Origin: Exiguobacterium sp. s146
Lineage (GTDB): Bacteria; Bacillota; Bacilli; Exiguobacteriales; Exiguobacteriaceae
Reading direction: 5' to 3'
Assembly: GCF_018618415.1 (NCBI RefSeq)
Contig: NZ_JACSMA010000001.1
Span: forward strand, 310,001-374,000
Length of the DNA: 64,000 bases
The notes under the pieces were generated by a model that had not been told where the DNA came from, made no database searches, and worked only from the letters and a program-made list of their open reading frames with translations. Positions 2,778 to 63,918 of this stretch are shown here, piece by piece (the stretch's first letter is position 1; every line of letters starts with the position of its first letter). Position numbers and translations under genes: made by a program.

Positions 2778-2800
2778 TACAAAAATATACAAAAATCAAA

Positions 2801-2829
2801 TTGACATGTCCGAACGTGTGTAATAGACT
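2801..2829 (+). promoter_or_regulatory. Sigma-A type promoter for the arabinan importer operon
   Basis: TTGACA at 2801-2806, 17-base spacer, TAGACT at 2824-2829. A perfect -35 with a weaker -10; a cre site begins 11 bases downstream. Confidence 0.6.
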
Positions 2830-2839
2830 CAAATTGTAC

Positions 2840-2853
2840 AGAAAACGCTTTCA
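2840..2853 (-). promoter_or_regulatory. cre site (CcpA catabolite repression) of the arabinan operon
   Basis: On the minus strand the site reads TGAAAGCGTTTTCT, a full match to the degenerate consensus TGWAARCGYTWNCW. It overlaps the expected transcription start of the araN promoter, so glucose repression of arabinan uptake is likely. Confidence 0.8.
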
Positions 2854-2937
2854 TTACTAATTACATTGGTTTCTTAGCTAGTGCATGTATAGTGTCGTGT
2901 GGGCTTCATTATACAGTTTGCTTTTTTATTTAACTCA

Positions 2938-2953
2938 ACATGTACGTACATCT
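2938..2953. promoter_or_regulatory. Palindromic AraR-like operator in the araN leader
   Basis: ACATGTACGTACATCT contains the perfect palindrome ATGTACGTACAT (2940-2951). Placed downstream of the promoter and about 45 bases before the araN start; with the 2763 site it could support looping, as known for paired AraR operators in B. subtilis. Confidence 0.65.
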
Positions 2954-2998
2954 TTATCATGCTTTGCACATGAATATAAACTGATGGAGGAATTCACA

Positions 2999-4348
2999 AT
3001 GAATCGTAAATCGAAAAAAATGTTTGCGTTAACGATGTCAGCACTGATGACAACTTCTTTAGCCCTCGCCGGCTGTTCGGGAGACGAGGCGGGCGCTGAC
3101 GGAAAAGTTGAACTGACGTTTATGTTCCGTGGAAATCCAGAAGAGTTAAAGGCCTATCAAGCGACGGTGAAACGTTTTGAAGAAGCCAATAAAGATGTGA
3201 AGGTAACGATGGTTCAGACGGCGCCGGATCAGTACGATACAAAACTCAAATCGGCCATCGCAGGTCGTAAAATCCCAGACGTCTTCTTCTATAATCCTGC
3301 CCAAGTGAAAGCATACGTAAACTCGGGTGTGCTACTCGATATAACAGAGGCGGTCGAAACTTCAGAAGACGTCAAGTTGGACGACATTTGGGAGAAGGGT
3401 GTCGACAAGTATCGTTTCGATGGGAAGACGCTTGGAGAAGGCGCGATTTACGGACTACCGAAAGACTTAGGTCCGTTCGCACTCGGTTACAACAAGACGA
3501 TGTTCGAAGATGCGGGCGTTCCGCTTCCGGATAAAGATAAGCCATATACATGGGATGAATTTGTAGACGTGGCCAAACAGTTGACGAAAGACACAAACGG
3601 TGACGGGAAGATGGATCAGTACGGTACGGGCTTTAACGTAAACTGGGCCCTTCAGCCTTTCGTTTGGAGTAATGGAGCGGACTGGATCAACGAAGACGGC
3701 ACGAAAGTGACGATTGATGATCCGAAATTCATCGAAGCGTTACAGTTCTTCGTCGATCAACAGTTGAAACATGGGATCACACCGTCAATCGGGGAAACAC
3801 AGACGCTCGACACGTACCAACGTTGGTTGAAAGGACAACTTGCCTTCTTCCCGGTCGGTCCTTGGGATATGGCAGCATTTAAAGAACAGCTGAAATTCGA
3901 ATATGACTTACTCCCGTGGCCAGCCGGTTCGACCGGTAAAGCGTCAGGATGGGTCGGTTCGCTTGGAATCGGCGTCGGTTCGACGACGAAACATAAAGAG
4001 GAAGCAGCGGAGTTGGCGATGTACCTATCAGCGGATCAAGAAGGACAACAAGCGCTCGTAGACGCACAAGTTCAATTGCCGAACAGTATGGAAATCGCGG
4101 ACAACTGGGCAGCGGACACTTCAATCAAACCAGACAACAAACAAGAGTTCCTTGATTTAATCAATGATTATGGCCGCGGCTTCCCGGCTGAGAAAACATA
4201 CACGGCAGAATGGTACGATGAGTTCTTCAAAAACATCCAGCCTGTCCTCGACGGTAAAACATCGGTCGAAGACTATGTGAAGACGGCGCAACCGAAGATG
4301 CAGAAATTGCTCGATGCGGCGATCGAACAAGAGAAACAGGCGAACTGA
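2999..4348 (+). CDS. araN: AraN-type arabino-oligosaccharide-binding lipoprotein
   Basis: 449 residues. A lysine-rich N terminus and hydrophobic stretch end in the lipobox L-A-G-C with Cys26 as the lipidated residue. The rest is an extracellular solute-binding protein of the family-1 type ([19 protein letters not shown], later [12 protein letters not shown]). It delivers sugars to the two permeases encoded next. Start chosen at the ATG after TGGAGG (about 2985-2990); an in-frame upstream TTG-like extension would destroy the lipoprotein signal. Gene order binding protein-permease-permease, directly under AraR-like operators, matches araNPQ, which imports arabinose oligomers. Confidence 0.85.
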
Positions 4349-4417
4349 TCAGAGAGTCGAAACGGGGGTGGCGAAGTTCGCCACCCGCGTCTCTGACGTT
4401 GAAAGGATGGAAGAACA

Positions 4418-5314
4418 ATGAAAACAAAATCGATTTCCAAGTTATATCGAACTGAACAACGGTATGCCTACTTGTTCGTTGCGGCACCGGTCATTGGGTT
4501 CTTCCTCTTCGCGTTCGTACCGTTGATGTATTCCGTTTACGGCGCCTTCACGAATTGGAACGGTCTCGGCCAAATGAAATTTATCGGGTTTGAAAATTTC
4601 GTTAACTTGTTCCAAGATGAATATTTTTATAAATCGATGTACAACACAATCTTTATGATGATTGGAATCCCAATCGGCATCGTCCTCGCCCTTCTGCTTG
4701 CTCTCGCGTTGAATCGAAAGATTTTCGGGACGGACACATTCCGCGTAATTTACTATATTCCCGTCATCTCGTCGATTGCTGCCGTCTCCATCTTATGGCA
4801 ATGGGCATACAACGGGGACTATGGATTGGTCAACCAATTCTTGGCGTTGATCGGCATCGACGGGCCGAACTGGCTCCAAAACACCGAAACCGTCAAACCC
4901 GCGCTCATTCTCATGGCGATTTGGAAAGGCCTCGGTTACACGATGCTTCTTTACTTGGCGGCGCTTCAAAGTGTCCCGAAATCATTTTATGAGGCAGCGA
5001 AACTCGATGGGGCCAACGCGTGGCAAAGCTTTTGGCACATCACGCTCCCGATGGTCAAACCGGTCACGTTCTTTATCATCGTGACGAACATCATCGGTGG
5101 GGCACAGATTTTCACGGAAATTAACGTCATGACACCAACCGGAGGTCCAGAGTACTCGTCTGCCTCTGCGGTCTTCTACATTTGGCAAAAATCGTTCGGG
5201 AACTTCCAACTCGGTTACGCTTCGGCGATGGCGCTCGTCCTCGGGCTCTTCATTTTCATCGTCACGTTGCTCCAATTCCGGATGAATGAAAAATCATCGT
5301 TCGATCTTGATTGA
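4418..5314 (+). CDS. araP: AraP-type ABC transporter permease
   Basis: 298 residues with six predicted membrane helices, beginning with a helix around residues 20-42 (FVAAPVIGFFLFAFVPLM). The cytoplasmic ATPase-docking loop is visible as EAAKLDGANAWQSFWHITLP near residue 190, the MalF/UgpA class signature. It forms the membrane channel with the next gene. Neither gene is accompanied by an ATPase; in B. subtilis AraNPQ shares the general ATPase MsmX, and the same is inferred here. Ribosome site GAAAGGATGG precedes the ATG. Confidence 0.85.
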   Translation: MKTKSISKLYRTEQRYAYLFVAAPVIGFFLFAFVPLMYSVYGAFTNWNGLGQMKFIGFENFVNLFQDEYFYKSMYNTIFMMIGIPIGIVLALLLALALNRKIFGTDTFRVIYYIPVISSIAAVSILWQWAYNGDYGLVNQFLALIGIDGPNWLQNTETVKPALILMAIWKGLGYTMLLYLAALQSVPKSFYEAAKLDGANAWQSFWHITLPMVKPVTFFIIVTNIIGGAQIFTEINVMTPTGGPEYSSASAVFYIWQKSFGNFQLGYASAMALVLGLFIFIVTLLQFRMNEKSSFDLD

Positions 5315-5344
5315 GCGATTCGCGTATAGGAAAGGAGAATGACC

Positions 5345-6229
5345 ATGCAATTAGCTCTCTCGCGAAAAAAAGAGAAAGTGGAGACGATGTCGGTGAAGAA
5401 GAAGGACCGGATCACGGATTTCTTCATCTTTATCTTCCTGTCTATCGGAGCGGTCGTCATGATTGCGCCGTTGCTCTGGATGGTGTCGACGTCGTTAAAA
5501 TCAAAAGAGGATGTGTTCGCGCTCCCGCCAGTGTGGATTCCGACAGATATTTCGTTTAGCAAGTACACGGAAATTTGGAGTATGGGTCCGCTGTTGTCCG
5601 GGATATCGAACAGTTTGATCGTCGCATTATCCGTCACAATCGTCGGGACGTTCACGTCGAGCTTGGCTGCGTTCGCCTTTGCGAAGTTGAACTTCAGAGG
5701 AAAGAATAAAATATTCCTCCTTTTGTTCGCTTCCGTCATGATCCCGTACCCGGTACTCATGATTCCCCAGTTCATGATGTTCTCGAGCATCGGCTGGGTG
5801 GATACGTTGTTACCATTGATTGTACCGGGACTGTTCGGGAATATTTTCATGATTTTCTTCTTGCGTCAATTTTTGAACAGCATTCCGAACTCGATTATCG
5901 AAGCGGCCAAGATTGATGGCTGCTCGTACTTCCAAATCTTCTATAAGATTATCTTCCCATTGATCAAGCCGGCCGTGGCCGCGCAATTGATTCTTTGGTT
6001 CATGGCAATCTGGAACGACTACCTCGGGCCGATTCTGTATTTGAATTCGCCGGAGAAACAGACGCTTCAACTTGTCATCGCGAACTTTAACGCATCGTAT
6101 GCAATTCAAAGTGATTATCCGTTAATCATGGCTGCGTCCGTCGTGGCGTTACTCCCGATGTTAATCGTCTTCATGATCTTCCAAAAACAGATCATCGAGT
6201 CGATTGCGATTTCTGGTGTGAAGGGCTGA
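5345..6229 (+). CDS. araQ: AraQ-type ABC transporter permease
   Basis: 294 residues of the MalG class with six helices. The EAA loop reads EAAKIDGCSYFQIFYKIIFP in the second half. The ATG at 5345 was preferred to the ATG at 5339 because AAAGGAG (5331-5337) is only one base from the first and seven from the second. It pairs with AraP for uptake of arabinose oligomers. The operon's importer part ends with a strong terminator at 6243-6277, which probably lowers expression of the following hydrolase genes relative to the importer. Confidence 0.85.
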   Translation: MQLALSRKKEKVETMSVKKKDRITDFFIFIFLSIGAVVMIAPLLWMVSTSLKSKEDVFALPPVWIPTDISFSKYTEIWSMGPLLSGISNSLIVALSVTIVGTFTSSLAAFAFAKLNFRGKNKIFLLLFASVMIPYPVLMIPQFMMFSSIGWVDTLLPLIVPGLFGNIFMIFFLRQFLNSIPNSIIEAAKIDGCSYFQIFYKIIFPLIKPAVAAQLILWFMAIWNDYLGPILYLNSPEKQTLQLVIANFNASYAIQSDYPLIMAASVVALLPMLIVFMIFQKQIIESIAISGVKG

Positions 6230-6242
6230 GGTGTGACAGGAC

Positions 6243-6277
6243 AAAGGCACCCGTCTTTTTAAGGCGGGTGCCTTTTT
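6243..6277 (+). terminator. Intrinsic terminator between araQ and the GH43 genes
   Basis: AAAGGCACCCG (6243-6253) pairs with CGGGTGCCTTT (6265-6275), followed by more T residues. The next gene starts only 20 bases later, so read-through or a separate promoter must feed it; none was obvious. Confidence 0.9.
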
Positions 6278-37039: not shown

Positions 37040-37215
37040 CCCTTTCTTTAATGAAGTCGGGACAAATGGACGAAAACGGACAGTTTCTCAAAAATGAGCT
37101 TTCCTAGCTTAGCATATTTGTTTTGACGTGAAGGGAATGTTTTCCACAGTGGGTCAATAGTTTGGCACATTGGAAGAGTAAACCGATTATCAACAAATAT
37201 TGAAAGCATATAAAT

Positions 37216-37251
37216 GAAAAACCGTCCCACTTCTTTGTTGAGAGGGACGGT
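37216..37251 (-). terminator. Terminator of the two-gene AT-rich cassette
   Basis: ACCGTCCC (minus-strand left arm at 37244-37251) pairs with GGGACGGT (37221-37228), then TTTTT on the minus strand. Confidence 0.9.
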
Positions 37252-37276
37252 CAAACATATCAAAAATCGAGAAATG

Positions 37277-37870
37277 TTAAAGTGAATCGAAGGTCTTGAA
37301 TATTTTGTCCACTACATTGTCAGCAGTGACATCCATCAGAGGGATTTGTGTGCTTACGATATGTTGGACGCCCCAGTAGTGACGATCACTGCTTTCTTGG
37401 TTGATTGGGGTGATACGCGAATGACCATTTTCTAATTCGATGTTCATTAAATCTGCATTGCGTAATGGGTAATAGAATCTCCAATGGTTGGATGGAGAAC
37501 ATCCTTTACCCCAGTCCTGCATCGTTTCATTGTTATATACAAATTTGGATAGTCGAATACAAGGAAGCTGACTTTCTTTCAACTCTAATTCCTCATCATA
37601 CAACTCAATCTCCATGACATATAACGGTCCGTCCCGCCATTCATTTTCAAACTCGTTATGGTCCTTGTTTTGAAAGATAAGGATGAAATCACCGATGAAC
37701 CAACCGGCGAAATCATTGTCTGACTTGTAGCGTAGAAACTTATCGACGACACTGACGTAATGGCTTTTCTCTGGGGCGATGGTTTTCGTATAGTCCATTA
37801 ACTTATGGATGTTCTCGTATGTATTATAGACAACATAGAAGGCGTTTCTTACATTCTCAGTTGAATTCAT
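37277..37870 (-). CDS. Unknown protein, second gene of the AT-rich cassette
   Basis: 197 residues, not recognised. It starts MNSTENVRNAFYVVYNTYENI and is rich in acidic and aromatic residues, with segments DFAGWFIGDFILIFQNKDHNEF, NHWRFYYPLRNADLMNIE and HYWGVQHIVSTQIPLMDVT. No signal peptide or membrane helix, so cytosolic. GAGGAG eight bases before ATG 37870 sets the start, overlapping the end of the upstream nuclease-like gene by 14 bases, so the two are coupled. GC content is well below the flanking genes. It may be a partner or immunity component of the first gene, but that is inference. Confidence 0.75.
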   Translation of the reverse strand: MNSTENVRNAFYVVYNTYENIHKLMDYTKTIAPEKSHYVSVVDKFLRYKSDNDFAGWFIGDFILIFQNKDHNEFENEWRDGPLYVMEIELYDEELELKESQLPCIRLSKFVYNNETMQDWGKGCSPSNHWRFYYPLRNADLMNIELENGHSRITPINQESSDRHYWGVQHIVSTQIPLMDVTADNVVDKIFKTFDSL

Positions 37871-38621
37871 AATATAGCTCCTCATTGATTGATGGATTGG
37901 TTATAAAATCGATTGTTACTTCATTGCTTAAAATGTTGAAGTCGAATAATTGATTTGTATGTATGATTGGTGCTTCGTAGATGTCCATCCTGATAAAATC
38001 TTCAAATCCTTTTCTCGTCAACAGCTCGATTAAATCTTGGATGATAATCTGTTGAAAATGATCTAATCCATTCAATTGTTTTAATTCATGCAAAAAATCC
38101 TGCCATGCTACGTATTCTAGTTCGACATCATCTTCGATTATTGAGTTGTCTAAAGATCCAACGCTTTTTTCTACAGCCTTACACATCTGTCGATCCGCAA
38201 TGAAGAGAAGCACCTTTTTCTTGTTGCCACCTTTCTTTGCAACAATTTGCGATTCCCTTGCGAGTTGATGTTTACTCGACGTGTTCGGGTCATGGTCAGC
38301 GTCGTCCACAGAAGAGAGTCCACTGAGAAATTTTACTTCAACGCCAATCATGACGTTCTTGAAAGTGAGTAGGGCATCTAGTTCACCCTCTTGGTCATAG
38401 GGCCAAAATTCAATTCGATCTGCCCAAAATCTGTCCGGAATTTCTTCAATGATTGATTTGACTGTAGATGTTTTAACCACATTCGCCAACACTTTTCCGA
38501 GTCCGTCTGAGAAGGGGAGGTAACGCAAGACACCAAATACATTGCCCGTTAAATTGTCTTCTAGTCGTTCGGAAAGGTTTGAACCAGTTCGGCTGACTTT
38601 CCCTTTAATTTCAGCTAACAC
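37857..38621 (-). CDS. PD-(D/E)XK nuclease-like protein, first gene of the AT-rich cassette
   Basis: 254 residues. The segment GELDALLTFKNVMIGVEVKF fits the PD-(D/E)XK core: Asp82, then Glu95-x-Lys97 after a hydrophobic strand, with a Gln-x-x-Arg (QLARE, about 119-123) on the following helix. The N terminus (ERLEDNLTGNVFGVLRYLP) is a helical lead-in seen in several restriction-like families. Start is a GTG at 38621 with AGGAGG seven bases upstream; the ATG-initiated longer frame would bury that site. AT-rich and flanked by conserved housekeeping or regulatory genes, as acquired cassettes often are. Biological role unknown. Confidence 0.75.
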   Translation of the reverse strand: MLAEIKGKVSRTGSNLSERLEDNLTGNVFGVLRYLPFSDGLGKVLANVVKTSTVKSIIEEIPDRFWADRIEFWPYDQEGELDALLTFKNVMIGVEVKFLSGLSSVDDADHDPNTSSKHQLARESQIVAKKGGNKKKVLLFIADRQMCKAVEKSVGSLDNSIIEDDVELEYVAWQDFLHELKQLNGLDHFQQIIIQDLIELLTRKGFEDFIRMDIYEAPIIHTNQLFDFNILSNEVTIDFITNPSINEELYYEFN

Positions 38622-38766
38622 AAATCGACCTCCTGATTGAATAGATTCATAAGAATACATACACGTATTCGCTAAAAGTAATTTTTTTCCTTTTATTAAA
38701 ACTTCAGGATGTCAGGTTCCAAGTGATTAGCAAGGAAATGACTAATTGATGATTAGTCTTTGATTG

Positions 38767-54145: not shown

Positions 54146-54865
54146 ATGAAAGAAGAAACAATTTCTATTGGAGAATTATTCTCCATCTTAAAGCGAAGCA
54201 AATTGCTCATCGCTAGTTTAGCAATTATCGCGGCACTCATCGCCTTTTTAGCTAGTTCGTTCGTGATTAGTCCGACATACGAAGCGTCAACACAGGTTCT
54301 CGTTGCACCGAAACAATCTGAACAATCGATTGATTTAGGTCAAGTTCAATCTTCAATTAACTTGGTCAACACATATCGTGTGATCATTCAAAGCCCGGCC
54401 ATTTTAGAGCAAGTTCAAGAAAATGTAGTGGGTGCTCCGGAGAACATCAGTAATTTAATCACGGTCAATAGTGAACAAAATTCTCAGGTTATCAATATTA
54501 AAGTCCAACATACAAACCCAGTTTTAGCGACAGATATTGCCAACGAAATCAGTGATGTCTTCTCAAAAGAAGTTCCAGAATTGATGAGTGTTGATAATGT
54601 CAAAGTTCTTTCAAAGGCATCGGTCCCAATGTTCCCGGTAAAGCCGAACATTTTATTAAATACAGCGATTGCATCAGTTCTTGGATTAATGATTGGTGTA
54701 GCCATCGCATTCCTTAAAGTGGTGTTGGATCGCCGGATTAAGACGGAACAAGACGTTGAAAACATCTTGGAACTCCCGGTTCTTGGATCGATTCCTGTCA
54801 TCGATAAAGTTGAAATGCGTCAACAACGTCAAGCTAACGTGAAAGGTGAACAAGCCCATGTTTAA
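54146..54865 (+). CDS. Wzz/CapA-type polysaccharide chain-length and kinase-modulator protein
   Basis: 239 residues with two helices (about 25-45 and 174-195), the Wzz topology. The N-terminal EETISIGELFSILKRSKLLI and the Pro-rich PVKPNILLNTAIASVLGLMIG before the second helix are typical of YwqC/TkmA and CapA. It activates the tyrosine kinase encoded next and controls polymer length and export. It overlaps the kinase gene by eight bases. Confidence 0.9.
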   Translation: MKEETISIGELFSILKRSKLLIASLAIIAALIAFLASSFVISPTYEASTQVLVAPKQSEQSIDLGQVQSSINLVNTYRVIIQSPAILEQVQENVVGAPENISNLITVNSEQNSQVINIKVQHTNPVLATDIANEISDVFSKEVPELMSVDNVKVLSKASVPMFPVKPNILLNTAIASVLGLMIGVAIAFLKVVLDRRIKTEQDVENILELPVLGSIPVIDKVEMRQQRQANVKGEQAHV

Positions 54866-55574
54866 ATTCGGAAAAAAGAAACATAAGCACGTTCAATATG
54901 ACAAAACAGGACGGGATTTAATCACCCTTCTTAAACCGAAGTCACCGATTTCAGAGCAATATCGCACAATCCGGACGAACTTAGAATTTACCGCTGTAGA
55001 TGATGATTTACAAACAATGGTTATTACCTCAGCCTCATCGGGTGAAGGGAAGTCGACCACTTCGTCTAATCTTGCTGTCGTCTACGCACAGCAAGGTAAG
55101 AAAGTTTTGCTCGTCGACTGTGACATGCGCCGCCCGACAGCCCACTTCACGTTCCGTCTTTCGAACGGTATTGGTCTTTCTACCGTGTTAGCGAAAAAGA
55201 CAACCGTTGAAAAAGCGACGCACTCGACTCAAGTCGAAAACCTCGATTTGATTGCGGCTGGTCCAATTCCACCAAATCCGTCAGAGTTGTTGTCATCAAA
55301 AATGATGGATCGTGTCTTAGAAGAACTTCGAGCAAATTATGACGTCATCATTTTAGACGCTCCTCCGATGATGCAAGTGGCGGATACACGTCTTTTGGCA
55401 CGCAAAGTGGATGGTGTCGTCCTCGTCGTCGGTTGTGATAAGTCAGACCGTCAAATGGTTGTCAAAGCAAAAGAACAATTGACGCTCGCGGAGGCACACA
55501 TTCTTGGGGTTGTCTTGAATAAACGTGAACCGCAAGGCAGCGACGATTACTATTACTATTACGCATACGAATAA
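54858..55574 (+). CDS. CpsD/CapB-type bacterial tyrosine kinase
   Basis: 238 residues. Walker A SASSGEGKSTTSSNLA, Walker A' LLVDCDMRRPTAHFTF and Walker B VIILDAPPM identify a BY-kinase. The C terminus carries the autophosphorylated tyrosine cluster DDYYYYYAYE. It works with the upstream modulator and the PHP phosphatase to control exopolysaccharide assembly. ATG 54858 has AAAGGTG nine bases upstream; the GTG at 54846 would overlap that site. Confidence 0.93.
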   Translation: MFKFGKKKHKHVQYDKTGRDLITLLKPKSPISEQYRTIRTNLEFTAVDDDLQTMVITSASSGEGKSTTSSNLAVVYAQQGKKVLLVDCDMRRPTAHFTFRLSNGIGLSTVLAKKTTVEKATHSTQVENLDLIAAGPIPPNPSELLSSKMMDRVLEELRANYDVIILDAPPMMQVADTRLLARKVDGVVLVVGCDKSDRQMVVKAKEQLTLAEAHILGVVLNKREPQGSDDYYYYYAYE

Positions 55575-55588
55575 AAGGAGAGCGTGCC

Positions 55589-56356
55589 ATGATTGATATC
55601 CATTGTCACTTATTGCCGGCCGTTGATGACGGTCCGGAAACAGTCGAACAAGCGGTCGAAATGGCGAAACGCGCCGTAAGTGAAGGGGTGACCGCAATCG
55701 TGGTCACCCCCCACGCGTTTCACCCGCAGTTTGACACAAGTCAGCTCGATGTAGCAAATGCTGTCGCGAGATTACAAAATGTTTTGCGGCAAGAAGGAAT
55801 CGACCTGGATTTATATACAGGGCAAGAAATTCGAGTTTTTGGAGACCTTGCTGAATCATTAGAGCAAAGAAAGGCATTATCACTCGCCGGATCTCGTTAC
55901 GTTTTAGTGGAGTTTCCGAGTGATTCAGTGCCAGCCTATGCGGAACAACTCTTCTTTAGCCTTCAAACGGAAGGCTATACACCCGTCATCGCTCACCCAG
56001 AAAGGAATAAAGAATTTGCTACAAATCCAAAACGATTGATGGACTTCGTCTCGTCTGGAGCACTCTCACAAATCACGACGAGTAGCTTGACTGGCGAGTT
56101 CGGCCAAAATGTGAAGGAACTAGCATTCGCTTACCTTCGTAACGGATTAAGTCACTTGCTTGCATCAGACGCTCATAGTACTGGCCGTCGAACCTTCTAT
56201 TGGACCGAAGTTGAAAAGGTTGTTCGCGAAGAACTTGGTCAAGATAAGTGGGAGAATTACGTAATCAATGCGGAAGCAGTTATGAAAGATGAGTTTGTAT
56301 TCATTGATCCACCAACATTACCGACTAAAAATTGGCGAGGAAAATGGAAAAAATAA
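55589..56356 (+). CDS. CpsB/YwqE-type PHP-domain tyrosine phosphatase
   Basis: 255 residues. The PHP start MIDIHCHLLPAVDDGP carries the metal-binding HxH; further motifs are TPHAFHPQFD, IAHPERNKEF and LASDAHSTGRR. It removes phosphate from the tyrosine cluster of the kinase encoded 14 bases upstream. RBS AAAGGAGAG. The three-gene regulatory set precedes the biosynthetic genes. Confidence 0.93.
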   Translation: MIDIHCHLLPAVDDGPETVEQAVEMAKRAVSEGVTAIVVTPHAFHPQFDTSQLDVANAVARLQNVLRQEGIDLDLYTGQEIRVFGDLAESLEQRKALSLAGSRYVLVEFPSDSVPAYAEQLFFSLQTEGYTPVIAHPERNKEFATNPKRLMDFVSSGALSQITTSSLTGEFGQNVKELAFAYLRNGLSHLLASDAHSTGRRTFYWTEVEKVVREELGQDKWENYVINAEAVMKDEFVFIDPPTLPTKNWRGKWKK

Positions 56357-56501
56357 TTTACTTATTGTCAAAGAGTAGTTATTGAAAATCCATCTAAAAT
56401 ATAATTCTTTTGTCGACAACTGTCGAACGATTTTAGGTTTATTTTACTCCTTGTATGTTTTTATATTAGGTCGAAAGTGATAATCTTAATTTATAATTTT
56501 G

Positions 56502-56527
56502 AAAGGATGTAAGTTACATCCTTTTTT
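56502..56527 (+). terminator. Terminator/attenuator between the phosphatase gene and galU
   Basis: AAAGGATGT (56502-56510) pairs with ACATCCTTT (56516-56524) around AAGTT, followed by TTT. It lies 50 bases before galU, downstream of promoter-like TATATT, so it may act as a leader attenuator as well as an end of the kinase unit. Confidence 0.8.
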
Positions 56528-56576
56528 CTATGAATCATACAGGAAATATATATTTATCCATAAAGGAGTGGTTTAA

Positions 56577-57476
56577 ATGACAACTAAACGAGTGAAAAAA
56601 GCAGTCATCCCGGCAGCAGGTCTCGGTACACGTTTTTTACCGGCAACGAAAGCGATGCCGAAAGAAATGTTACCAATCGTAGATAAGCCGACAATTCAAT
56701 ATATTATCGAAGAGGCAGTCGAATCAGGTATTGAAGACATTTTAATTGTCACTGGTAAAGGTAAACGAGCGATTGAAGATCATTTCGATTCGGTACCAGA
56801 ACTTGAGCAACAATTGATTGAAAAAGGAAAATCAGAATTTTTAAAACTCGTCGAAGAAACAACTAACATTAATATTCATTTCATCCGTCAATCAAAACCG
56901 ATGGGACTAGGACATGCGGTTCTTCAAGCAAAAGCATTCGTCGGAGACGAGCCGTTTGTTGTTATGCTTGGTGATGATATTGTGCAAGCAGAGATTCCTT
57001 GTACGAAACAATTAATCAAACAATACAACAAAACAGAGAGCTCGATTATCGGTGTGCAACCGGTATCTCACGAAGTGACACATCGTTATGGTATCGTCGA
57101 CCCGCAAACGTCGCTAGAAGGTGGGTTACATAAAGTTGAGTCGTTCGTTGAGAAACCGGCACCGGGGACAGAGCCTTCAAACCTCGCTATTCTTGGCCGT
57201 TACTTATTTACACCCCAAATTTTTAAGTTTTTAGAGACACAAGTTCCAGGAGCTGGTGGGGAAATCCAGTTAACAGATGCGATTACACGTTTGAATGAAG
57301 TGCAACGTGTCTTCGCTTATGAATTCACAGGAAAGCGCTATGATGTCGGAGAGAAGCTCGGCTTCATCCAAACGACACTAGAGTTTGCTTTAGCGCGAGA
57401 AGATTTGCGTAAGGACGTGTTGAAGATGATCACGCAACTAGTAGAAGAAAATGCTGCAATGAATGTAGTCAACTAA
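56577..57476 (+). CDS. galU: UTP-glucose-1-phosphate uridylyltransferase
   Basis: 299 residues. The nucleotide-binding motif is [30 protein letters not shown]-type [14 protein letters not shown] and [10 protein letters not shown] (metal site) follow. It makes UDP-glucose, the precursor for GalE and the dehydrogenase at the right edge. AAAGGAGTGG precedes the ATG. It may form the first gene of a sub-operon after the attenuator. Confidence 0.95.
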
Positions 57477-57491
57477 AGGGAGGGAAAGTAA

Positions 57492-59384
57492 TTGTCAATT
57501 CCTGAACTAGGTCGAAAATCATTTCGGACAAGCGTATTAGTAGTTCTTGATGTTTTTGCAATTCTATCTTCAATGTTCGTGACGTACTTTTTCTTGTACC
57601 CTATTGAATTTATTGAAAATGTAGATCGGAATCATTTCGTAGAGTCTGCTTTACTATATAGCGCATTATTTATCGTCATGGCCGGTATCAGCCGCTTGTA
57701 TCGAGTTGCATGGCGCTTTGCAAGTATGTCCGAAGCCATTCGTCTTGCTGTTACTCTTATTATGAGCACGTTAACTTTGTACTTTCTTCAATTTGCTGTT
57801 TACGGGGAAGCGATGGAAAGAATGTTGTTCCTTAGTTTTTGTCTCTCTCTCTTACTATTAGGTGGTATTCGTTTAGGGTCACGAATTTACGTGACGTGGA
57901 AACAAGATCGTCGTTTAATTCTAGGTGCACGAAAGATTAATCGTCGTAAATCTGAAAAACGAACTTTAATTGTTGGAGCTGGTCAAGCTGGTCGAATGCT
58001 AGTCCGTCAAATTAATCAGTCAGATAATCATCGCATGCATCCAGTAGGATTCATTGATGATAATAGTCATCTCCAAAATTTAACTGTTAATGGAGTGAAG
58101 GTGTTGGGGACACTTGAAGAATTAGAGAGTGTAGTCGAACATCATGCGATTGATAAAATTGTATTCGCTATCCCATCTATGAATTATCAAGAACGTCTCA
58201 TAGTTATTAAACGTGCGAAAGCAATTTGTACAAATGTTCATACGTTGCCGATGATTGAAGAAGTCGCAGCCGGTAAAGTTGCGGTCAATCAAATGCGTCA
58301 AGTATCAATTGACGATCTTCTCGGCCGTGAACCAGTTGAACTTGATATTTCGGGTATTCAATCAGAGGTTGAAAATAAAACGGTGCTCGTCACAGGTGCA
58401 GGAGGCTCGATTGGTTCTGAAATTTGTCGCCAAATTTTGAAATTCAATCCTGAACGCTTGTTATTACTCGGTCACGGTGAAAATAGCATTTATTTGATTG
58501 AACGTGAGTTAAGAGAACTAAATTTAGATGTAGAACTCATCCCGGTCATTGCAGATGTTCAGGACGTTGAACGGTTACGCGACATCTTTATGAGACATTC
58601 GCCGCATCTCGTTTTCCATGCGGCGGCGCACAAACATGTCCCTTTAATGGAAGCGAATCCGCATGAAGCAGTTAAAAATAATATTTATGGTACAAAAAAC
58701 GTCGCTGAAATAGCAGATGAATACGGTGCGTCTCGCTTTGTCATGATTTCAACCGATAAAGCGGTCAATCCAACTAACGTCATGGGCTCGACGAAACGAG
58801 TCGCTGAGATGATTATTCAAAATTTGGCAAAGAAAAGTCATACAAAATACGCTGTCGTCCGCTTTGGAAATGTGTTGGGGAGTCGTGGATCGGTTATTCC
58901 TTTATTTAAAACACAGATTGAAAAAGGTGGACCAGTCACGGTGACTCATCCTGATATGACCCGTTATTTCATGACGATTCCTGAAGCAAGTCGTCTTGTC
59001 ATTCAAGCGGGAACGCTTGCGGATGGAGGCGAAGTATTCGTTCTCGATATGGGAGAACCGGTAAAAATTGTTGATCTTGCTCGAAACATGATTAAGTTAA
59101 GTGGCTTTACGGAAGAACAGATTCCGATTGCTTTTAGCGGTATTCGTCCAGGAGAAAAAATGTTTGAGGAGTTGCTGAAAGAAGGAGAAGTTCACCCAGA
59201 AGCAGTATATCCCAAAATTTTTACTGGAATTGTGACGGAAGAGACGAATATGGCTGAAAAACTTGCACGTATGAATGAATTAATGACTAGCGAAGCACTC
59301 AGTTTATATCTTGTTAACTGGGCAAACGATTGTCTGGATTTAAATAATTTGAATGTAAATAAAAACTTACATGAGACAGTCTAA
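57492..59384 (+). CDS. CapD/EpsC-like membrane-bound UDP-sugar 4,6-dehydratase
   Basis: 630 residues. Four N-terminal helices (about 13-120), a Rossmann-like CoA-binding domain (TLIVGAGQAGRMLVRQI) and a C-terminal SDR domain (VLVTGAGGSIGSEICRQIL, then HAAAHKHVPLMEANP and MISTDKAVNPTNVMGSTKR). The SxDK arrangement in place of YxxxK is typical of the PglF/CapD branch acting on UDP-GlcNAc. It likely supplies the 4-keto sugar for the first lipid-linked residue. TTG start with GGGAGGGA upstream. Confidence 0.9.
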   Translation: MSIPELGRKSFRTSVLVVLDVFAILSSMFVTYFFLYPIEFIENVDRNHFVESALLYSALFIVMAGISRLYRVAWRFASMSEAIRLAVTLIMSTLTLYFLQFAVYGEAMERMLFLSFCLSLLLLGGIRLGSRIYVTWKQDRRLILGARKINRRKSEKRTLIVGAGQAGRMLVRQINQSDNHRMHPVGFIDDNSHLQNLTVNGVKVLGTLEELESVVEHHAIDKIVFAIPSMNYQERLIVIKRAKAICTNVHTLPMIEEVAAGKVAVNQMRQVSIDDLLGREPVELDISGIQSEVENKTVLVTGAGGSIGSEICRQILKFNPERLLLLGHGENSIYLIERELRELNLDVELIPVIADVQDVERLRDIFMRHSPHLVFHAAAHKHVPLMEANPHEAVKNNIYGTKNVAEIADEYGASRFVMISTDKAVNPTNVMGSTKRVAEMIIQNLAKKSHTKYAVVRFGNVLGSRGSVIPLFKTQIEKGGPVTVTHPDMTRYFMTIPEASRLVIQAGTLADGGEVFVLDMGEPVKIVDLARNMIKLSGFTEEQIPIAFSGIRPGEKMFEELLKEGEVHPEAVYPKIFTGIVTEETNMAEKLARMNELMTSEALSLYLVNWANDCLDLNNLNVNKNLHETV

Positions 59385-59400
59385 TAATGGAGGGTCAGTA

Positions 59401-60033
59401 ATGCCGTATAGTGAAAAAAAACGAAAAATTGACTTTATACTTTCTTTAATCGGATTGATTTTACTGTCACCATTATTTATAGGAATTATGGTCGCTATTA
59501 AATTGGAGTCGAAAGGCCCGGTTTTTTTTAAGCAAAAACGTATTGGACTTCATCGAACGCCTTTCAATATTTTAAAGTTTCGCACGATGCGTATTGATGC
59601 ACCCAAAGATATGCCAACTCATTTATTAACAGATCCAGACCGATATATTACGAAAATCGGCAAGTTTCTTCGAAAAACGAGTCTCGATGAATTACCACAA
59701 ATCATTAATATTTTAAAAGGTGAGATGGCAGTAATTGGACCACGTCCAGCACTTTGGAACCAATATGATTTGATTGATGAGCGTGAAAAGTATGAAGTTC
59801 ATAGTATATTACCTGGCCTTACAGGATGGGCACAAATCAATGGGAGAGACGAAATACCAATTGAACTCAAAGCCAAAATGGACGGTGACTATGTCAAAAA
59901 AATGTCATTAAAACTAGATGCTTATTGTTTTGTAAAAACCATTTTCAGTGTTTTGAAAAGCGAAGGAGTGTTAGAAGGTGGTACTGGAATGATGAGTAAG
60001 GAAGTTGCAACTGCGAAGGAAAAAGAAAAGTGA
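59401..60033 (+). CDS. Undecaprenyl-phosphate sugar phosphotransferase (monotopic PGT)
   Basis: 210 residues. One N-terminal helix (FILSLIGLILLSPLFIGIMVAI) followed by the short PGT core: GPVFFKQKRIGLHRTPFNILKFRTMR, RKTSLDELPQ with the catalytic Asp-Glu, and IGPRPALWNQ. It transfers the first sugar phosphate to the lipid carrier, starting the repeat unit. GGAGGGTC precedes ATG 59401. It overlaps the next gene by four bases (GTGA). Confidence 0.93.
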   Translation: MPYSEKKRKIDFILSLIGLILLSPLFIGIMVAIKLESKGPVFFKQKRIGLHRTPFNILKFRTMRIDAPKDMPTHLLTDPDRYITKIGKFLRKTSLDELPQIINILKGEMAVIGPRPALWNQYDLIDEREKYEVHSILPGLTGWAQINGRDEIPIELKAKMDGDYVKKMSLKLDAYCFVKTIFSVLKSEGVLEGGTGMMSKEVATAKEKEK

Positions 60034-60890
60034 AGAAAGTACTAGTGGTTGGGAAAAATAGTTATGTAGGTCAAGAGTTAAATAAATGGATTACAAATAA
60101 ATACTCTAGTCAAATTAAATTGGATCTCGTAGGCTCAAAAAACGGAGAATGGGAAACTATAGAATTTTCTAAGTATGATTCAATAATACATGTGGCTGGA
60201 ATTGCACATATCAGAGAAAAAAAAAGTAATGAAAATATTTATAAAGAAATCAATACAAATTTGGCTGAATCTGTTGCTAAAAAAGCGAAAAAAGCAGGTG
60301 TTAAGCAATTTGTATTTTTAAGTTCAATGAGTGTATACGGATTAACAACAGGTGTGATTACTAGAAACACTAAGGCGATACCTAATTCTTATTATGGGAA
60401 ATCTAAATTGGAAGCTGAACATAAAATTAAAAATCTAGTAGATGATAACTTTACTTTGGCAATTGTTAGACCTCCTATGATTTACGGATTGGGATGTAAG
60501 GGTAATTATCAAAAAATATCAAAAATGTCTAAAATAACACCTTTTTTCCCGAAAGTAAACAATTCAAGAAGCATGCTGCATATTTATAATCTTACAGAAT
60601 TACTATCTATAATTATATTAAATCAAAAGTCAGGTTACTTTTTCCCTCAGAATAAAGAATATGTCGATGTTGGTGACTTAGTGATAACTATTGGGGAAAT
60701 ACACTTTCATAAGATTTATTTGATAAGAGGTTTAAAGAAAATCATAAATAATATACGATTAAACGTTTTTGAAAAAGTCTTTGGTAATCTAATTTATGAA
60801 AAAGAAATGTCTTTACTAGATGAAGATTATCATGTGATTGATTACTATAATAGCGTTGTTATATCAGAAAAACAGTCGAAACTCAACTAG
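60030..60890 (+). CDS. NAD-dependent epimerase/dehydratase family protein
   Basis: 286 residues. SDR motif VLVVGKNSYVGQELNKW; catalytic Ser and YxxxK in LSSMSVYGL and SYYGKSKLEAE. The N-terminal glycine motif is relaxed (G-K-N-S-Y-V-G), so nucleotide binding is probable but the substrate, likely a nucleotide sugar, is unknown. GTG start overlaps the previous stop. From here the sequence is markedly AT-rich, around 30 percent GC by eye, unlike the kinase genes upstream. Confidence 0.82.
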   Translation: MKKVLVVGKNSYVGQELNKWITNKYSSQIKLDLVGSKNGEWETIEFSKYDSIIHVAGIAHIREKKSNENIYKEINTNLAESVAKKAKKAGVKQFVFLSSMSVYGLTTGVITRNTKAIPNSYYGKSKLEAEHKIKNLVDDNFTLAIVRPPMIYGLGCKGNYQKISKMSKITPFFPKVNNSRSMLHIYNLTELLSIIILNQKSGYFFPQNKEYVDVGDLVITIGEIHFHKIYLIRGLKKIINNIRLNVFEKVFGNLIYEKEMSLLDEDYHVIDYYNSVVISEKQSKLN

Positions 60891-60903
60891 AATGGAGATT
60901 TAA

Positions 60904-61848
60904 ATGTTATTTTCAGTAATAATCCCTTTATATAATAAAGAAAAACATATTAAAGAAACCATATTGAGTGTCTTAAATCAAACAACTCAAGATTTTGAGA
61001 TAATTGTGGTAGATGATGGCTCAACAGATCAAAGTATCTTAGAAATGGAAAAAGTAAGTTTTAATAACAGCAAAATAAAATTGATAAAGCAAGTGAATCA
61101 AGGAGTTTCTGCTGCGAGAAACGCTGGTCTTAGAGAGGCTAAAGGAGAATATATATCTTTTCTGGATGCGGACGATATCTGGGAAAGTAATTACCTTGAA
61201 GTGATAAATAAATTGATAATTTTATTTCCTAATTGCGATATTTTTACAACAGCTTACACAGTTCATTTAAATGAACACACTTCGAAATTATCAGCAGCGA
61301 TTAGTTATAAGGATACCGATGATGAAAATTATGTGAGTGATTATTGGATGACCATTAACAATAAGTATGAATTTGTTTGGACTTCTGCTACTACAATAAG
61401 AAAAAAAACATTGGATGATATTGGGTTTTTCAATGAAAATGAGACAATCGGTGAAGATTTAGACTTTTTTGCTCGTATTGCTTTGAACAATTCTAATATA
61501 GCCCATTCAATTTTACCTTGTGTAAAATATAATCGATATGCAGAAAACAATGCTAGAACATCTGGGAAAGTCGCTTTTCCAAAAGCCTACTTGGAAATTT
61601 TGAGAAATGAAATGAATAATTTTAACAGAAGTTCTTTGCAAAGACTCAATATCAGACTTAAATATGACAAAAAAATTATAGCCTATACGTATACTTTGAT
61701 TTTAGCAGGCCAACGTAAAAAAGCTCGTGAAGTTCTAAATGATTGGCATCCTCAAAATGTGTCATTTAAAGTTATGCTAGTATTAGCCTCCGCTTTACCT
61801 AACTTCATCATCAAATTTGTATATGGCATCAGGCTAAAAGCTTTTTAA
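60904..61848 (+). CDS. Family 2 glycosyltransferase
   Basis: 314 residues. GT-A fold motifs: FSVIIPLYNKEKHIKETILSVL, IIVVDDGSTDQSI with the nucleotide-binding Asp pair, and ISFLDADDIWES with the DxD-like metal site. It adds one sugar to the growing repeat unit; donor and linkage cannot be predicted. RBS ATGGAG. Strongly AT-rich. Confidence 0.9.
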   Translation: MLFSVIIPLYNKEKHIKETILSVLNQTTQDFEIIVVDDGSTDQSILEMEKVSFNNSKIKLIKQVNQGVSAARNAGLREAKGEYISFLDADDIWESNYLEVINKLIILFPNCDIFTTAYTVHLNEHTSKLSAAISYKDTDDENYVSDYWMTINNKYEFVWTSATTIRKKTLDDIGFFNENETIGEDLDFFARIALNNSNIAHSILPCVKYNRYAENNARTSGKVAFPKAYLEILRNEMNNFNRSSLQRLNIRLKYDKKIIAYTYTLILAGQRKKAREVLNDWHPQNVSFKVMLVLASALPNFIIKFVYGIRLKAF

Positions 61849-61894
61849 TAACAACGATTTTGAAATTTTTTAAATTCAGAAGGGGATTAGATTA

Positions 61895-63094
61895 ATGAAA
61901 GATATTTTGATAGTTGATACTCCGTTTGTGGGTTATCCTTCCAATAATCGCAGTAACTATATTCCGGAAATGCTAATTAAAGAAGGATATGATGTAGAGA
62001 AAGTATCCTCAAATTTCAATCATTTTACAAAAGAGTTGGCTGTACAAGACGATTATCTCAATAGTAAATTTAAAATAACTCTAATTCCAACTATCCCTTA
62101 TAAAAAAAATCTTTCATTGAACAGATACCTAAGCCAAAAGAAATTCGCTAAAAATTTGGAGAAATATTTAAATGAGAGAGAAAAACCAGATTTAATCTAT
62201 AATTTTATACCTTCTCTTGACGTTGGACAGGTAGTTGCAAAATATGCTAAAAAGAACGACATTAAATACGTAATTGACGTTAGGGATTTGTGGCCAGAGG
62301 CTTTTAAAATGGTTATTAAAAATCAAATGATTTCAACTGTTTTATTCTATCCAATGACTAGAAAAGCCAACAGAGTTTACAATGCTGCTGATGGAATCAT
62401 TGCAGTTTCTGATACTTATAGAGAAAGAGCGCTATCTTCGAGAAAAAATAGTACGATTTCTAAAACGGTTTATCTAGGTACTAACTTAGATTTCTTTAAT
62501 TTTAAAACTAGAATGAACAACCTTCTCACTAAACAAACAAATCAGATCAATTTAGTATACACTGGGACTTTGGGTCACAGTTATAATTTACCTTTAATTT
62601 TTGAGGCGATGAAAATATTAAAAGAAGAGGAAGCTTATGATATTAAACTAACTGTTATAGGAAATGGACCACTAGAATCTCATTTTAAAAATGAAGCAAA
62701 AAAATATGAATTAAATGTGAATTTCACTGGAAGAATTTCTTATGAAGAAGTCGTATCATATTTGCAATTAAGTGACATAGCAGTAAATCCAATCGTCCCT
62801 AAAGCGGCACAGAGTATTATCAATAAACATGCAGATTATGCTGCGGCCGGCTTACCAGTTCTTAATACTCAAAATTCAAAAGAATATCGAGATTTAATTG
62901 AATTAAATCAAATAGGAATGAATACTTCAAGTAACCCTCAGGATGTAGCGGAAAAACTAAAATTCCTCATTGAAAATAAAGAACTAAGACATCAAATGTC
63001 AATTAATCATAGGAATCTAGCTGAAGAAATATTTGATAGAGCGAAAACTTATAATGTAATAGTGGACATGATTCAAAGATTGCTGATGAAATAA
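61895..63094 (+). CDS. Family 4 glycosyltransferase
   Basis: 399 residues of the GT-B fold. The N-terminal domain opens DILIVDTPFVGYPSNNRSNY; the C-terminal domain has LVYTGTLGHSYNLPLIFEAMKIL and an E-x7-E-like region around AAAGLPVLNTQN. AAGGGGATTAG lies upstream. Likely adds an internal sugar of the exopolysaccharide unit. Confidence 0.88.
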   Translation: MKDILIVDTPFVGYPSNNRSNYIPEMLIKEGYDVEKVSSNFNHFTKELAVQDDYLNSKFKITLIPTIPYKKNLSLNRYLSQKKFAKNLEKYLNEREKPDLIYNFIPSLDVGQVVAKYAKKNDIKYVIDVRDLWPEAFKMVIKNQMISTVLFYPMTRKANRVYNAADGIIAVSDTYRERALSSRKNSTISKTVYLGTNLDFFNFKTRMNNLLTKQTNQINLVYTGTLGHSYNLPLIFEAMKILKEEEAYDIKLTVIGNGPLESHFKNEAKKYELNVNFTGRISYEEVVSYLQLSDIAVNPIVPKAAQSIINKHADYAAAGLPVLNTQNSKEYRDLIELNQIGMNTSSNPQDVAEKLKFLIENKELRHQMSINHRNLAEEIFDRAKTYNVIVDMIQRLLMK

Positions 63095-63129
63095 GTGAAT
63101 GCTATTTAAAAAATGACAGAGGTGTAGAT

Positions 63130-63918
63130 TTGAATATTCAAGTGTTACTCTCAACAATGCACCAATCAAAAATAGATTGGCTAGACAAATTTAATTTACA
63201 AACAAATGCTATTATTATTAATCAATGTGATAAGAATGAATATATAAAGATTGATAAAAATTTTAAGGAAGTTGAAGTTTATTCTTACAACGAACTTGGA
63301 GTTGGTAAAAGTAGAAACAGTGCTCTTATAAGATCTAATGCTGACATATGTCTAATGGCAGATGACGATATGAGATATGTTGATGGATATGAAAAAATAG
63401 TCCTTGATGCTTTTAGAAATAATCCTTACGCAGATGTGATTCTATTTAACGTCGCCATCGAAGATGCAGAAGGAAATATCAATTTGAAAGTAAAAAAGAA
63501 TTCCAAGGTTAAGTTTTATAATTATTTAAAATATGGAACTGTTAATATTGCATTTCGCCGTGAAGTTATCATAAAAAACAATATATTCTTTTCACTTTTA
63601 TTTGGAGGTGGGGCAAGGTATGGCTCAGGAGAAGATACATTATTCTTAACTGAATGTATAAAAAAAGGACTAACAATATATTCTAACAAAGAAATTATAG
63701 CGGAAATTAAATATCGTCCTTCTTCGTGGTTTAAAGGATATAGCGAAAAGTATTATTATGACAAAGGTGCTTTGTTTGCTGCGATTAACCGAAGGTTTTC
63801 ATATTTATTGATGCTTCAGTATTTAATTAGAAAAAAGAAAAACATAGGTGGAAATATTTCGTTTGTCGAAGCCATGACTTTTATGATAAATGGAATTAAA
63901 GATTTTAATAATAAATAG
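63130..63918 (+). CDS. Glycosyltransferase, GT-A/family 2-like
   Basis: 262 residues. The start NIQVLLSTMHQSKIDWLDKF and the DxD-like ICLMADDDMRYVDGYEK support a GT-A enzyme; the body includes GVGKSRNSALIRSNADI and GGGARYGSGEDTLFL, in which the GEDT segment is typical of the acceptor side of these enzymes. TTG start after AGAGGTG. Function in repeat-unit assembly is inferred from context. Confidence 0.82.
   Translation: MNIQVLLSTMHQSKIDWLDKFNLQTNAIIINQCDKNEYIKIDKNFKEVEVYSYNELGVGKSRNSALIRSNADICLMADDDMRYVDGYEKIVLDAFRNNPYADVILFNVAIEDAEGNINLKVKKNSKVKFYNYLKYGTVNIAFRREVIIKNNIFFSLLFGGGARYGSGEDTLFLTECIKKGLTIYSNKEIIAEIKYRPSSWFKGYSEKYYYDKGALFAAINRRFSYLLMLQYLIRKKKNIGGNISFVEAMTFMINGIKDFNNK

Follow-up and report, generated by a model that had tools for sequence, protein, structure and literature searches.

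The closest described counterpart of the gene pair reported here is PDC-M15, one of the PDC systems, which are unpublished or unvalidated candidates found through their embedding in defence loci (PMC11811056, PMC12988326). Neither PDC-M15 nor REase-ARP (PF22558), a restriction-endonuclease-type family that weakly matches the A part of a fused homologue, is mentioned in the literature that we examined. We analysed a 64,000-nucleotide stretch of the Exiguobacterium sp. s146 genome (hereafter the window) that carries two adjoining genes, A and B. With a probability of about 0.68, the pair is a horizontally moving two-gene module directed against phages or mobile elements, a relative of PDC-M15 in which A is a nuclease and B a bound partner that controls or directs it.

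The whole inserted cassette, comprising both genes, the upstream region and the terminator, spans positions 37173..38750; its edges, good to +/- 4 bp, were set by aligning the flanks with the genomes of two sister species (G002 and G012), where the match ends at 37172 and resumes at 38751/38755. All of its features lie on the minus strand. Gene A (37857..38621, 254 aa) opens with a GTG start at 38621 behind the ribosome site AGGAGG (38629..38634), and gene B (37277..37870, 197 aa) opens with an ATG start at 37870, its ribosome site GAGGAG (37878..37883) lying inside gene A. The end of A and the start of B overlap by 14 nt (37857..37870). The first-pass annotation, which described two overlapping minus-strand genes with these starts and ribosome sites, had every coordinate right. 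It also described a strong terminator, and we located this element at 37252-37214 (37214..37252 in forward numbering) as a 9-pair hairpin (ACCGTCCC/GGGACGGT type) with a T run behind it. The hairpin folds at -19 kcal/mol, and only 3 of 200 shuffles were equally stable (z -2.9); a consensus terminator scanner made no call there because the loop exceeds 8 nt.

We assigned gene A from homologue alignment, predicted structure, and fold and profile matches. Among 23 aligned homologues, five residues were invariant: E80 and D82 in the first half of the catalytic motif (codons E80-L81-D82, 38376..38384), E95 and K97 in the (D/E)XK half (codons E95-V96-K97, 38331..38339), and Q119 (38265..38267) in the helix that follows the catalytic strand in the predicted structure. 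The core proposed earlier from the letters thus stood for D82, E95, K97 and Q119, but the R of its Q-x-x-R was not invariant in the same homologues. A structure model (15 input sequences; mean pLDDT 76, above 85 across most of the core and poor in the first 13 and last 40 residues) placed D82 before one strand, E95-x-K97 at the end of the next, and Q119 in the helix after it, which is the order expected of a PD-(D/E)XK fold. The nearest solved folds, R.BspD6I2, Nt.BspD6I, EcoO109I, SfsA and McrBC, were mostly restriction-type and scored marginally (E 0.002-0.1); even the best matches, restriction endonucleases among them, reached only E 0.002-0.03. A PDB sequence search with the A profile returned no match, and A could not be named from Pfam, NCBIfam or PHROGs. 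Weak but significant matches were found to four PADLOC PDC-M15A models (E 1e-7 to 2e-6), the best at E 1.3e-7 and 29 bits over residues 8-207. On the strength of the invariant residues, the model and the nearest folds, A is almost certainly a PD-(D/E)XK protein, and it would be expected to cut nucleic acid.

The partner protein was described beforehand as matching nothing familiar, and this description held: searches of B against Pfam, NCBIfam and PADLOC returned no match and PHROGs none of significance, and its profile found nothing in the PDB sequence search. Its predicted structure is confident (pLDDT 88), with a long N-terminal helix, several strands and C-terminal helices, and matched no solved or viral fold significantly.

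To place the pair in context, we took 19 homologous loci and compared the four closest genes on either side with genes from the centres of 19 control regions; 17 of these regions lie elsewhere on the contigs of the test loci, and the remaining two come from other carrier genomes. At E 1e-20, the 140 test proteins drew matches to 132 PADLOC families and the 150 control proteins to 1, although the 132 families overlap heavily, one protein matching many models, and do not stand for 132 proteins. Counted by locus, the enrichment was modest, with clear defence genes near about 6 of 19 A-B loci versus at most 2 of 19 controls. In G476, BrxF, BrxC, PglXI and PglZ (a BREX set) directly follow the pair; Cas8b/Cas7b of a type I-B CRISPR system lie near it in G487, a type I methyltransferase in both G690 and G403, and a GajB-type (Gabija-type) helicase in G516. 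Other homologues neighbour ThsB (Thoeris), an LmuA-like protease, PDC-M26A and a type I restriction enzyme. The suggestion that the pair might be a defence unit therefore gains from its homologues, which cluster with known defence genes, whereas the window copy stands alone between house-keeping genes, outside any defence island. At the G476 locus (L115, G476:C123, 1100-11837), A-B lies on the same strand as, and immediately upstream of, brxF-brxC-pglXI-pglZ, and the two sets possibly form one operon; the A gene there looks truncated, at 219 aa.

These neighbours and the folds nearest to A also bear on a restriction-like enzyme, in which B would be the subunit that recognises DNA or its modification and A the cutter, working either with no dedicated methylase (type IV-like) or alongside the methylases of neighbouring restriction or BREX systems. 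The heterodimeric R.BspD6I and McrBC are among the fold neighbours of A, and in several genomes the homologues adjoin type I restriction and BREX methylases. Nevertheless, the cassette contains no methylase, many loci, including the window, have none adjoining, and B has no recognisable DNA-binding fold, so that we regard this reading as unlikely, if a serious competitor.

A and B were found in the same three genomes among 61 relatives. Across 399 Bacilli genomes, the A profile matched in 12 and the B profile in 10, all within those 12; B lay beside A in all 10, with no orphan B, and the two genomes matched by the A profile alone have, immediately behind A, a B-type gene that has diverged. The survey of related genomes that had been proposed thus showed co-occurrence. 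Elsewhere, nearly every A homologue likewise has a B-type gene just downstream; the order recurs in named loci of Bacillus, Neobacillus, Clostridium, Syntrophomonas, Herbivorax and others, the exceptions being a short match in a MAG contig and the locus of Clostridium sp. OS1-26, where A is truncated and B is missing. A PDC-M15A search of 398 Bacillota genomes added A genes that are more distant still; apart from two, each either has an adjacent partner of about 180-260 aa or is the fusion described below. Over 167 columns, the profile of these distant partners aligned with that of B (94% probability, E 1e-7), and the A profile of the distant group matched that of A at E 7e-40. The two exceptions fall into a remote A-like group; nucleases of such a group, lacking a B partner, occur at L083 and L091, one of them next to a TIR-like protein, and possibly form a separate single-gene system.

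Furthermore, one genome, G589, carries a natural A-B fusion, a single 387-aa frame (locus L111, G589:C23, 8630-9793) that matches A at 2-205 (E 1e-42) and B at 200-385 (E 5e-38). Distances among A and among B proteins correlate closely (Mantel r 0.94, p 1e-4, 21 pairs). Between the window copy and that of Exiguobacterium chiriqhucha RW-2 (G018), both genes show purifying selection (omega 0.195 for A, 0.024 for B), and dN is 0.139 for A and 0.015 for B at similar dS. A stop or frameshift interrupts A in G242, where B is intact. At the G265 locus (L108, G265:C1, 7670-10900), A is split by an insert of about 2 kb with what looks by eye like an amidase-like gene, and the N-terminal portion of the B frame is missing. 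Taken together, the fusion, the 14-nt overlap, the strict co-occurrence and the co-divergence point to a complex of A and B.

Such tight pairing, with one fusion, an overlap and no orphan B, fits either a nuclease with its regulator or a toxin-antitoxin-like arrangement. In the latter, A would be a self-toxic nuclease and B its bound antidote, the main function being self-maintenance and defence a side effect. This would accord with the far stronger constraint on B, with the broken A beside an intact B in G242, and with the lack of any intact A without a B-type partner within the A3/A4 family, which is suggestive only. However, the putative toxin gene stands first in the operon, one natural fusion joins the two proteins, and B, at about 200 aa, has its own globular fold in the model. 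The decayed OS1-26 locus, with a truncated A and no B, also counts against it, and the defence-island neighbours exceed what addiction needs, even though toxin-antitoxin modules also gather in such islands. We consider an addiction module unlikely.

The immune reading further holds that the module moves horizontally. The two genes are 39.8% GC and the whole cassette 38.7%, compared with 57.9% for the c-di-GMP gene and 59.4% for the RpiR gene, in agreement with the earlier remark that the pair is more AT-rich than both flanks; none of 104 same-length segments from positions 1-53,500 of the window matched its AT-richness. A separate AT-rich tract (28-48% GC) at 54146-63918 is a polysaccharide locus, whose genes, named by eye, include Wzz/Wze-type chain-length and kinase genes, a phosphatase, a UTP-glucose uridylyltransferase, epimerases and glycosyltransferases. 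The c-di-GMP gene (MHYT/GGDEF/EAL) and the RpiR gene are adjacent in 10 of 19 Exiguobacterium genomes, with a gap of about 180-205 bp; in the window, as in the G018 contig, 1.76 kb separates them. Aligned with G002 and G012, the window carries an insert of about 1.58 kb (37173-38750) in place of 11-15 bp, between flanks 94-97% identical on both sides. The comparison between the same flanks, proposed at the outset, thus revealed empty sites at the same point in two sister species. We found no transposase, integrase or clear target duplication with the insert at the window locus.

Within Exiguobacterium, only 2 of 19 species carry the pair, and its nearest relatives are in Bacillaceae, including a copy on a Niallia plasmid; further plasmid searches returned only this same plasmid. 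The lateral acquisition inferred earlier from composition is therefore borne out by empty sites, patchiness and relatives. Since dS between the window and G018 is 0.71 for A and 0.61 for B, near the 0.49 of the flanking genes, the two copies probably descend from one acquisition. In G014, the same intergenic site holds a different insert with one 1159-aa surface-protein-like gene (L072, G014:C32:384001-392000, about 2788-6267), so the site accepts inserts; it takes unrelated cargo but is no defence hotspot.

Mobility of this kind would also suit an accessory pair that serves a plasmid or integrative element rather than host defence. The Niallia plasmid copy speaks for it, as do the integrase, transposase or Rpn-type genes seen by eye near some copies. 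Against it, no transfer or replication genes accompany A-B, the pair stands alone in the Exiguobacterium chromosome, and we found no A or B homologue in phage records or viral contigs and no prophage copy; we hold an element-serving role to be improbable. PD-(D/E)XK proteins also work in repair, but a house-keeping nuclease or repair pair, which the first-pass annotation had allowed for, is refuted by its patchy occurrence, in 2 of 19 Exiguobacterium species and 12 of 399 Bacilli genomes, and by the sites left empty in G002 and G012 where a house-keeping pair would be present in all sister species, with the atypical GC adding to this, and is scarcely credible.

We return to the immune reading, under which A-B is probably an uncharacterised bacterial immune module that would protect its host from phages or plasmids. 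A would be a metal-dependent PD-(D/E)XK nuclease, and B would bind A and control or direct it. We favour a scheme in which, until infection, B would either silence A or direct it to foreign DNA, whereupon the A-B complex would degrade nucleic acid. Our estimate takes into account the isolated window cassette, the modest enrichment by locus, the lack of a match between B and PDC-M15B, the marginal fold matches of A and the lack of a prophage or phage copy; we found no published activity test of A or B. A bolder version, in which the pair is an autonomous immune complex matched to no characterised system and widespread at low frequency across Bacillota, with B, from an undescribed family, as the obligate regulator or target-sensor of A, is tentative and falls somewhat short of even odds.

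Among known proteins, the type III secretion chaperones ExsC, VecA and SycE recur among the fold neighbours of B, but at E >0.1 and TM <0.4, and this likeness is only a lead. The R.BspD6I small subunit, EcoO109I, McrBC and SfsA are the closest solved folds of the A core, yet their scores are marginal and A has no PDB sequence match; we know of none of them with a B-type partner. REase-ARP weakly matches the A part of the G589 fusion (E 5e-5, below cut-off), whereas window A does not match PF22558. We dropped it as a name for A, as the true member in G449 is built differently, its N-terminal stretch being rich in cysteine, and no B-type gene adjoins it within the 3.7 kb examined.

PDC-M15 comes closest. 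The matches of A to PDC-M15A models strengthen from those of the window to E 3e-15 in the G589 fusion, the PDC-M15B model PDLC04461 has 197 positions, the same length as B, and A is followed by a B of about 200 aa, a gene order known here from A-B loci alone. In contrast, B and all of its relatives examined match no PDC-M15B model in PADLOC, and PDLC04461 searched directly was negative in G000 and gave no convincing match in 398 Bacillota genomes. The only weak PDC-M15B matches, in G734 and G753, were set aside, as they fall in an unrelated locus or overlie an A gene in a different frame. Because A matches PDC-M15A but B matches no PADLOC model, the pair is best read from its sequences as a divergent Bacillota variant of the unvalidated PDC-M15 candidate, rather than as confirmed PDC-M15. 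PADLOC-DB recognises the nuclease and not its partner, and would therefore probably miss the system. Collectively, our analysis defines two unannotated genes as a two-gene family, in which the partner is obligate and one natural fusion occurs, and extends the PDC-M15 candidate into Bacillota.
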